Assembly: GCF_000565215.1 (NCBI RefSeq)
Contig: NZ_CP006934.1
Location: 310,001 to 374,000 of the forward strand
Source: Spiroplasma sabaudiense Ar-1343
GTDB lineage: Bacteria; Bacillota_I; Bacilli_A; Mycoplasmatales; Mycoplasmataceae
DNA: 64,000 nucleotides
Direction: 5' to 3'
Of this stretch, positions 45,581-57,889 are shown in pieces. The stretch's first letter is position 1. Each line of letters begins with the position of its first letter. The notes under the pieces were generated by a model, which was not told where the DNA came from, did not search any database, and saw only the letters and a list, made by a program, of their open reading frames with translations. The position numbers and the translations under genes were made by a program.

Positions 45581-46978
45581 ATGGCATTAAATGTAAAGAC
45601 AGTTGAAACATTTGAGGATTTTAAAAATTACTTATTTAGGTATTTAGAAAAAAACGATAACGAAATTTCACAAGAAGAAATAATTGAAGTGATATCAAAA
45701 AAATTTATTGATATTGAAGAAGAAGAAATTGAATTGCTAATGAAAGATTTAGCTGATTTGAATGTTGTTTTCACCGATGAAGAAATTGATGAAGATGAGT
45801 TAGAAGAAGCATTAAATAGCGAAGATGAAAATGATGATGGAAAAGATTTAGAGTCAGAGTTTAAAGAACGTAGCAAAAAACAAAAAGAGTTGAAGAAGAC
45901 AGCGGGTTTGACAACAAGTGTTAAATATCGAGTTGGTGGAATTAGCAATGAAACAAAAATACAAGATATTATTAAGGCCTACTTTAATCAAATCGGATCA
46001 TCAAAAATTTTGACAAAAGATGAAGAAGTTTTTTATGCCAAAATGTTGGAAAGCGATGACGAAGAGGAAGTAACTGCAGGAAGAAACAAATTAATCACTT
46101 CTAATTTAAAATTAGTAATTTCTGTTGCTCGTAAACATTTAAATCGCGGACTAGACTTTGCTGATTTAATTGAAGAGGGCAACATCGGTTTAATGAAGGC
46201 TGTTGATAAATTTGATTATAAAAAAGGATTTAAATTTTCAACTTATGCAACTTGATGAATCCGTCAGGCTATTACTCGTGCAATAGCCGATCAGGCAAGA
46301 ACAATTAGAATTCCAGTCCACATGGTTGAAACAATAAACAAACTAACTAGAATCGAAAGACAACTAACCCAAGAATTTGGTAGAGAACCGACTTCTAAGG
46401 AAATAGCTGAAAAATACGGAAATGGTATTACTGCTGCTAAAGTAATTGAAATTAAAAAGCTTTCAATTGAGCCAGTTAGTTTAGAGAAACCTTTTGGAGA
46501 CGAAGATGATACACACTTTGGTGATTTTGTTGAAGATAAGGATATTGCTTCTCCAGATGAATATGCGGAAAAAGAATCTTTGAGAGAAGTTATTGATGAG
46601 GTATTTTTAGAAATTTTAGCGCCCCGAGAAGAGAAGGTCGTTCGTATGCGTTTTGGAATTTTACCAACAAAACTTAGAACATTAATTAGATTAGCAGAAG
46701 ATTGCGATGACGAAAGCGTAGAGGATTTAAAAGCGGCAGTCATTGGTTTAGACATACACTATGATACCCCGATTGAAAAAGTTCAAACCTACCGCAATGA
46801 GATGATTCAAAGTCATTTATCAAAATATGATTCTCCCAAAACCTTAGAAGAAGTTGGTAAAGAATTAAAAGTAACAAGAGAAAGAATCCGTCAAATAGAA
46901 GCCAAAACTATTCGAAAATTTAAACCAACTGCGGCAAATCCAAGATCAAAAGTACTTAGAGATTTTTTCAAGGGTTAA
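45581..46978 (+). CDS. rpoD: primary sigma factor RpoD (SigA)
   Basis: The housekeeping sigma factor, 465 residues. The N-terminal region is very acidic (region 1.1-like). Region 2 includes [14 protein letters not shown] and the -10 recognition segment [16 protein letters not shown], in which both Trp are UGA. Region 3 follows. The C-terminal region 4 helix-turn-helix reads [11 protein letters not shown]. It matches the TTGACA/TATAAT-type promoters seen in the window. The gene directly abuts dnaG. Confidence 0.97.
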
Positions 46979-51238: not shown

Positions 51239-52606
51239 ATGAGCTTTGAAAAATTTGGTTTTAAAAAATTTATAAATGATGCTTTAAAAAGCATTAATTT
51301 TTTAGAGCCAACCTCAATTCAAGATAAGGTAATTCCAAAAATTAAAAAATATAATAATATTGTTGCCCAAGCACATACAGGAACAGGAAAAACGCACGCC
51401 TTCTTATTGCCGATTTTAAATAACATAGATATTTTAGAAAAAAAAGTTCAAGCGGTAATTATTACTCCAACAAGAGAATTGGCTCGTCAAATTTATGCAA
51501 ATGTGAATGAAATATTAAATTTTAATTCTGAAATTACAAAAGCTTGTTTTATTGGTGGTCAAGATATTACAAAACAACAAGAGAGTCTCTCAAAAGTGCA
51601 GCCAATGGTTGTCGTTGGAACCCCATCAAGATTAAAAGAATTGTATGAAAATGGTTCATTGAAAATAACAACTACAAAATTTCTAGTAATTGATGAATTT
51701 GACATGATTTTTGATTTAGGATTTATCGAAGAAATTGACCTCCTTTTATCAAGAATTAATGAAAATGTTAATATTTCGCTTTTTTCAGCAACGCTGCCAA
51801 ATGAATTAAAACCATTTTTAGTTAAATATTTGAATAATGCCTTATTTATTGACGATTCTAAAAATAAACCATCAAACAAAAATATTGAGCACGCTTTGAT
51901 TTGAACTAAGAATAGAGAAAATCAAACAGTTTTTAACAATTTGATTTCTTCAATAAATCCATTTATTGTTATGATTTTTGTCAATCGAAAAGATCAGGTA
52001 AAAAATGTTGTTAGTTGACTAAAAGAATTGGATATTACAAATGTCGGGGAATTACATGCTGGACTTGATCCAAGGATGCGTTCAAGTATGCAAAAACGTA
52101 TCCAAAATAATGAGTTTAAATATATTGTTGCAACAGATATAGCGGCAAGAGGTTTGGATATTAATGGGGTTAGTCATGTTATTTCAATTGACTTGCCAAA
52201 TGATTTATCTTATTATATTCATCGTAGCGGTCGTACCGGAAGAAATAATTTTAATGGCCAAAGCTTTGTTTTGCATAACTCTGATAATCAAAATTCAATT
52301 GATGATCTAAGAAAAATTGGTGTTGAGTTTGTTAACTACAAGTTTATTGAAAACAAATTAGTTGAAACAACCATCAAAACAAAAAAACCAAAATTTTATA
52401 ACCCTAATTCCCCAGGTGAAATTGCATCTAAAAAGGTCGTAGCAAAATATAAAAAAGATAAGGTTAAACCAGGGTATAAAAAGAAACGCAAGGCCGAATT
52501 AGCTGAAATTAAACGAAAAATTCGTCGTGATCATATTAAAGAAAATATTTCAAAAATAAAGAAGGCAAAATATCAAAAACGTCGTGAAGAAATTTTTGAA
52601 GATTAA
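51239..52606 (+). CDS. DEAD-box RNA helicase
   Basis: A 455-residue DEAD-box helicase. Motifs in order: AHTGTGKT (I), PTRELA (Ia), VIDEFD (II), SAT (III), DIAARGLDI and HRSGRTGR (VI). Motif II reads DEFD instead of DEAD. The C-terminal ~90 residues are very basic and probably bind RNA. Three UGA-Trp codons join the two RecA-like halves. It likely acts in ribosome assembly or mRNA decay. It precedes the RavA-like gene by 30 bases. Confidence 0.92.
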
Positions 52607-56182: not shown

Positions 56183-56240
56183 AAAATGCTAATATTGTTG
56201 AATTACATTTCTAATTAAAATATAATCTAATTAGCATTTT
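56183..56240. promoter_or_regulatory. fib promoter bracketed by inverted repeat
   Basis: TTGAAT, 17 bases, TATAAT (56198-56226) lies between the arms of a perfect 11-bp inverted repeat, AAAATGCTAAT (56183) and ATTAGCATTTT (56230). The arms flank the -35 on one side and the predicted start site on the other. As RNA the repeat could also form a terminator for the upstream operon. Confidence 0.6.
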
Positions 56241-56244
56241 ATGT

Positions 56245-56387
56245 AAGACTATTAAAGTATACATAAAGAGCGATGAAGAAAAATGAGGTGCACAAAGATA
56301 ATGATAGGAATTATCTCAACAGCATACTTCACATTGAAAGACCGTCACGACATCAAGACTATTAAAAAGTACTGATGAAGAAATATG
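56245..56387 (+). repeat. imperfect direct repeat across fib 5'UTR and early codons
   Basis: AAGACTATTAAA (56245) followed by GATGAAGAAAAATG (56272) in the untranslated leader recurs in the gene as AAGACTATTAAA (56355) and GATGAAGAAATATG (56374). The gap between the parts differs by 8 bases. It looks like a decayed partial duplication of codons 19-29. Confidence 0.5.
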
Positions 56388-57845
56388 GTTATTCAAATCT
56401 TGAAGTATAGAGGAAAAAACTTTATCATAGCTACAATTGGTTATGGTAAGGCAAACGCCGCAATGGCAATAACATATTTAATGGAAGAGTACAAAAACTT
56501 AGAAACTGTTTTAAACATTGACTTAGCTCTATCAACAAATGATAAATTTGATACAACAGATACTGTTATGTCAACTAAATTCATTTACAGAGATGCAGAT
56601 TTGACTGTTTTTAAAGATATTAAATATGGACAAATTGTTCACGAACCAGAAGCATTCCAATTCGATACTGAATTAGTTCAAACAGTTAAAAACTTTAAAT
56701 TAGGAGTTTCAGATGGAATTGTTGGAACAGCTGACATGTTAATCTACAACTCAAAACAATTTAAAGAAATGGTTGACAAATACGGACAAACAATTGACGT
56801 AATTGATACTGAAGCAGGAGCATTAGCTCAAGTTGCAAAAAAATCAACAGTAAATTTCATTGCAATGAAAATTATGTACAACAATGCATTAAGTCCTTGA
56901 GACAATGATCCATTACATAAATTTAAAATTTATGAAACAACTAATACTTTAAAATTCTTACTTGTAAGATTATTAAATTTATTATCTTCAAAACTAGTTC
57001 TTGATTTCAGTAAAAACTCACTTGATGAATTAGATATCATCAATGACTTATTTGAAATCGAACATGATTCATGAGTGAAACGTTTCAGCCCAGCTGCAAC
57101 TCAATTACTTTCAGGTGCAGGACCATCTCTAATGGCTCTTGACGCTAAAGGTTTAAAACCAGAAGCAATTGACTTAGTTGAAGTTATGAAACAAAAAGTT
57201 GAAGAAGAAGGACCAAGTAAAATTATTTTAGGGGAAGATGAATGAAAACATGCTCCTAAAAAATGATTGAAAAAAGTTATGTTCTTAGAAAATGTTCATG
57301 TAAATTAAGATGAATTATTATGAAACCGTTCAGCAAAATACGATGTTAAATCAGAAAAAATCTTCACAATTGAAGAAACTGCTAAAGCAATCGCTAAAAC
57401 AATTGCTGACCGTTCACAAGACAAATCATCATATGCATACGATGGAACAACAGCTCTAAACAAACACTTAATGGTAACTTGTGATCCTTTAGTTTCTTTC
57501 TACATTACAAATAACCAAACTCACGAATTCGTTGAGGAAAGAAAATTTGGTAGTGAATTAGTCGTTAATGAATTTATTAAATTCTTAAACAACGAATTGA
57601 AAGAAGTGGAATCACCATTTACTAAAATTGCTATTTTATTAAAAATTCCAGCAATCGGAAACAGAAGAATCCCAGTATTTATTGAAACTGCTAAAAAAGC
57701 AAACCAACCAATTAAATTCTTGGGTTACTCAGAATCAAACCAACAAAAATACACAGTTGTAGATATTTCAAGAAATGACTACGACCCAATTAAAGTTGGA
57801 TCATTCAAAGTAACTGTTCGATTAAAAAACGAAGTAACTAAATAG
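56301..57845 (+). pseudogene. fib: Spiroplasma fibril cytoskeletal protein, interrupted by one TAA
   Basis: Fib builds the flat cytoskeletal ribbon that shapes and drives helical spiroplasmas. The 514-codon frame matches the known ~512-residue protein. Its first ~230 residues resemble MTA/SAH nucleosidase; the enzyme's Glu (IDTEAGALAQ) is kept, but its SDNA-type Asp is Asn (YNNA), so catalysis is doubtful. An in-frame TAA at 57306-57308, after 335 residues, cuts it. The rest is open and reads as good Fib sequence to the normal end, NEVTK. A GAGGTG site precedes the ATG. No ribosome site precedes the first later in-frame ATG (57471). Confidence 0.85.
57306..57308 (+). other. in-frame TAA within fib
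   Basis: The only stop in an otherwise open 514-codon frame, between residues HVN and DELLWN. TAA is a normal stop in this genome, so it would truncate the protein. One base change from AAA, CAA or GAA, or a base-call error, would explain it. Confidence 0.85.
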
Positions 57846-57850
57846 TTATT

Positions 57851-57889
57851 AAAGAAACACTAAAAATGTGTTTCTTTTTTTATTTTTTT
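57851..57889 (+). terminator. strong terminator after fib
   Basis: AAAGAAACAC, a 7-base loop, GTGTTTCTTT, then a long T tract. A 10-bp perfect stem. Confidence 0.88.

Follow-up and report, generated by a model that had tools for sequence, protein, structure and literature searches.

Two species, Spiroplasma sabaudiense and S. helicoides, are cited in papers on spiroplasma motility as helical, swimming and free of the fibril protein Fib (PMC9582952, PMC9663586), and one of these papers rests its argument concerning MreB5 on that. The wording has become firmer with time: a review published in 2020 spoke of a probable disruption of the fibril gene of S. sabaudiense Ar-1343 by a stop codon (PMC7609405), whereas in two papers of 2022 this species appears as having no fibril (PMC9582952, PMC9663586), and one of them adds S. 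helicoides. The absence of fibril in S. sabaudiense was reported along with more than five mreB genes, and a convergence between MreB5 and fibril was suggested (PMC9663586). By means of reconstitution Fib was found to be dispensable for MreB-driven swimming (PMC13310574). The gene considered below is the very same one that the 2020 review took as disrupted, so that the disruption itself is already known and is only rediscovered here. The review, however, contained no sequence analysis; the age of the break, the selection acting on the gene, the set of tRNAs together with release factor RF1 and the comparison of mreB genes are added by the present study.

The gene belongs to the window, which is the whole analysed stretch of 64 kb from the S. 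sabaudiense Ar-1343 genome (1,075,953 bp in one contig, as in the published description, PMC5091035; 30 tRNAs and 7 pseudogenes are reported for CP006934, PMC6117150). In table-4 translation the plus-strand frame at 56301–57845 gives 335 residues, TAA, 178 residues and TAG, with no indel and no further stop, i.e. one lesion across 1.5 kb. Both pieces exceed the curated cut-off of 200 bits for the Fib profile NF033570: the N-terminal one scores 684.7 bits over model positions 1–335, and the C-terminal one 288.6 bits over positions 337–511. The break costs exactly one column (336) of the model, which is otherwise matched from end to end, and the leader and the start are shared with the two sister species (Table 1). 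The first-pass annotation, which had placed here a fib gene with a single TAA after residue 335 and good, undamaged Fib on both sides of it, is confirmed in all these respects, and with the uninterrupted frame of about 512 codons cut in this way the gene should be regarded as a broken member of the family. An additional in-frame ATG precedes the usual Fib start by six codons (56283–56300); it overlaps the Shine-Dalgarno-like sequence and is kept in both sister species.

Table 1. Features of the fib locus in coordinates of the 64 kb window.
Feature	Position	Strand	Basis or remark
Promoter-like site TTGAAT-17-TATAAT upstream of fib	56198..56226	+	stretch near-identical in both sister species
Shine-Dalgarno-like GAGGTG before the fib ATG	56285..56290	+	conserved in sister species
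N-terminal 335 fib codons and TAA	56301..57308	+	residues ~28–203 belong to the phosphorylase/MTA-SAH nucleosidase superfamily
In-frame TAA in fib	57306..57308	+	translation; Fib alignment column
C-terminal 178 fib codons and TAG	57309..57845	+	earliest in-frame start 57471
Intrinsic-terminator-like hairpin and T run 3' of fib	57851..57877	+	sequence

The window was scanned for stop codons that interrupt a frame open for at least 120 codons both before and after them. Apart from fib, four plus-strand cases were inspected, and all of them proved to be ordinary adjacent genes with a start codon close after the stop; a fifth one, at 52604, falls between DEAD-box and MoxR-like ORFs, and two more (29705 and 61900) are on the minus strand. 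Among the inspected plus-strand cases fib alone has a second frame that contains no in-frame ATG, GTG or TTG for 54 codons. A second intact copy, which according to the first-pass annotation would lower the importance of the break, was not found in whole-genome searches with the N and C parts of Fib: the C part matches only itself, and the N part has a single other match, to a nucleosidase. No homologue of the C part was found among PDB sequences. Structure prediction from four and five sequences reached pLDDT of only 32 for full Fib and 43 for its C part, respectively, too low for the models to be used.

That single other match (L002, G000:C1:630892-631386) is a canonical MTA/SAH nucleosidase, which shares 31% identity with the N part of Fib and keeps the active-site Glu and the Ser-Asp pair. 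The homology of Fib to the MTA/SAH nucleosidases is evident within residues ~28–203, which match Pfam PF01048 with 72.6 bits, but the N part of Fib remains below the curated nucleosidase cut-offs (69.8 versus 169 and 67.7 versus 73.8). Asp of the Ser-Asp pair is catalytic in the MTA/SAH nucleosidase family; in Fib the residue aligned with this Asp of 4qez is Asn194, and Asn is invariant in the Fib proteins aligned. The product of 335 residues would keep its nucleosidase-like part and is nevertheless unlikely to serve as an enzyme, since Asn replaces the catalytic Asp and the genome encodes its own canonical nucleosidase. Thus, the “nucleosidase-like half” of the first-pass annotation holds as a statement of homology and fails as a description of a working enzyme.

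A gene for Fib is present in 42 of 60 genomes of the family and is broken in only two of them, S. sabaudiense and S. helicoides. Each of the 40 remaining full-length frames is stop-free and has a sense codon at the TAA column; D or E is encoded there in 38 of them, and the two that differ come from very distant homologues. In particular, fib is intact in both sister species, S. alleghenense (1,336,077 bp; PMC6486257) and the one represented by genome G002. Distant full-length homologues with 32–36% identity in the C part were also found in G050 and G051 (L081 and L082), small genomes of a separate genus of the family. An annotated fib is present at 46334–46858 of NZ_CP047429.1, a record of S. 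citri of 122,910 bp in the plasmid collection; this record is possibly a piece of chromosome classed among plasmids.

The second broken gene, that of S. helicoides TABS-2 (G039; 1,326,546 bp; PMC5073277), is known from loci L027/L069 and carries a one-base frameshift near codon 114. As read from this frame, the “stop codon” ascribed to S. helicoides fib in the review (PMC7609405) is a result of the frameshift. Deviations at invariant columns are absent before the break (0/63) and number one after it (1/153), so here too a single lesion is found in an otherwise clean gene. The type of lesion is different, a frameshift in place of a nonsense change, and the event is an independent one in another clade. 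The sequenced stock of S. helicoides was purchased freeze-dried from a collection (PMC5073277).

An old pseudogene is expected to show relaxed selection and added lesions, and neither was registered in fib of S. sabaudiense. Of the 224 Fib columns that do not vary among 36 other species, the window departs from the invariant residue at four, in each case together with both sisters, and has no change of its own. The codon model with nine taxa gave omega of 0.027 for the window branch versus 0.068 for the background, and on the window branch nearly the same values were obtained before (0.024) and after (0.025) the stop. An earlier value of 0.15, obtained with four taxa in the first codon model, was rejected as an artefact of a single saturated outgroup. 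A random point change in fib has a chance of about 37% of striking an invariant residue or creating another stop, and no such change is seen; neutral drift since the loss is thereby limited to approximately 8 substitutions in 1539 nt at most (95%), i.e. to no more than ~0.5% per site. From these sequence data the break is extremely recent and belongs to a small final part of the history of the lineage, provided that the protein is no longer produced and the base is correct. If the protein were still produced or the base were an error, the same signature of purifying selection would be expected, and sequence alone cannot separate these cases.

In the comparison with L004 and L005, synonymous divergence of fib (window 56301–57845) is far below that of its neighbours, ordinary genes whose synonymous sites are almost saturated when these genomes are compared. 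Interspecies exchange of fib was considered in this connection and rejected: by third-position identity the gene falls between ribosomal-protein genes and tuf, so that strong codon bias and high expression explain the low divergence.

Several explanations of the interrupted frame were weighed against a recent loss. A wrong base in the record, introduced by sequencing or assembly while fib of the organism itself is intact, is rather unlikely. It would agree with a lone difference of substitution type at a site that is acidic in all close relatives, with the clean remainder of the gene and with a signal of purifying selection, which is the expectation for an intact gene. Yet substitution errors are rare in deep Illumina consensus sequences, and this counts against such an origin of the stop. 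In the pipeline of the same group, as described for S. helicoides, assemblies are moreover polished with mapped Illumina reads and inspected by eye (PMC5073277), and a probable disruption by this stop was subsequently accepted in the review (PMC7609405). An old and settled loss of Fib in the lineage, compensated by added copies of MreB as the literature suggests, is very unlikely: the report of absent fibril and more than five mreB genes (PMC9663586) speaks in its favour, but the fib frame is undecayed and the same six MreB-family genes are present in both fib-intact sisters. Six mreB genes were counted in S. sabaudiense, in both sisters, in G006 and in S. helicoides, and from five to seven in other fib-intact relatives, the weak last match of each genome (a DnaK-like frame of ~600 aa) being left out of these counts. 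Of the six MreBs of S. sabaudiense five were recovered, and in a tree they group with their counterparts from the sisters. By gene content, the number of mreB genes does not track the loss of Fib, and “extra MreBs” are no marker of it, because fib-intact sisters have the same six.

Read-through of UAA, either programmed or leaky, that yields enough full-length Fib was offered in the first-pass annotation together with a recent loss and a base error, and it is also very improbable, even if purifying selection beyond the stop is the same as before it. No UUA or CUA anticodon was found in the 30 tRNAs read, a number equal to the published one (PMC6117150), and RF1, encoded by the only release factor gene found, is complete (372 aa); with no suppressor tRNA and intact RF1 efficient read-through is unlikely. 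The stop is absent from the sisters, which does not conform to a conserved recoding site, and a very abundant filament protein would demand very high efficiency. To the particular case of functional Fib produced by efficient read-through of UAA without a dedicated suppressor tRNA, so that the fibre persists, we ascribe a slightly lower probability still. The least credible possibility is that the halves are made as separate cooperating proteins. Both of them are clean, and the nucleosidase-like domain, whose end is placed at about residue 203–228 (PMC9582952), does not include the stop, but, as was correctly stated in the first-pass annotation, the second half has no obvious ribosome site: the first in-frame start after the stop (57471) is not accompanied by a Shine-Dalgarno-like sequence, the ATGs closer to the stop belong to other frames and open no more than 49 codons, and none of the relatives examined is split at the same place.

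Among the three options initially proposed a recent loss fits best, and we consider it probable that the sole fib gene of S. sabaudiense Ar-1343 lost its function very recently due to one nonsense change. The gene, having a conserved leader and a terminator, would still be transcribed, but its product would not exceed 335 residues and would lack the C-terminal third, and normal Fib filaments should therefore be missing or defective. The nonsense change may have affected a very abundant, costly and dispensable scaffold protein, the loss of which could be tolerated if helicity and swimming can be driven by MreB proteins on their own, since MreB isoforms taken in pairs are enough for helicity switching (PMC13310574). 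The first-pass annotation expected an effect on cell shape and motility, but the break does not entail it, as Fib proved dispensable for MreB-driven swimming in the reconstitution work (PMC13310574). The loss in S. sabaudiense may have arisen in laboratory culture, possibly over decades, and the same may be true for the frameshift of S. helicoides TABS-2. Two independent fresh lesions of fib in type strains isolated in the 1980s would fit relaxed selection in culture.

Since the break of fib appears to be very new, S. sabaudiense, a helical wall-less bacterium of mosquitoes, provides weak evidence for life and swimming without the fibre. Its Fib-free swimming rests on morphology of 1987 and a sequence of 2014 and needs retesting; for S. 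sabaudiense and S. helicoides the morphologies were described in 1987 and 1997 and the genomes published in 2014 and 2016, respectively. As the lesions are single and fresh, the morphology predates the genomes and fib-intact sisters have the same mreB set, the two strains are not yet a proof of evolved Fib-free swimming. Examination of the sequenced stocks would directly reveal if helicity and motility are possible in a natural spiroplasma that lacks Fib.
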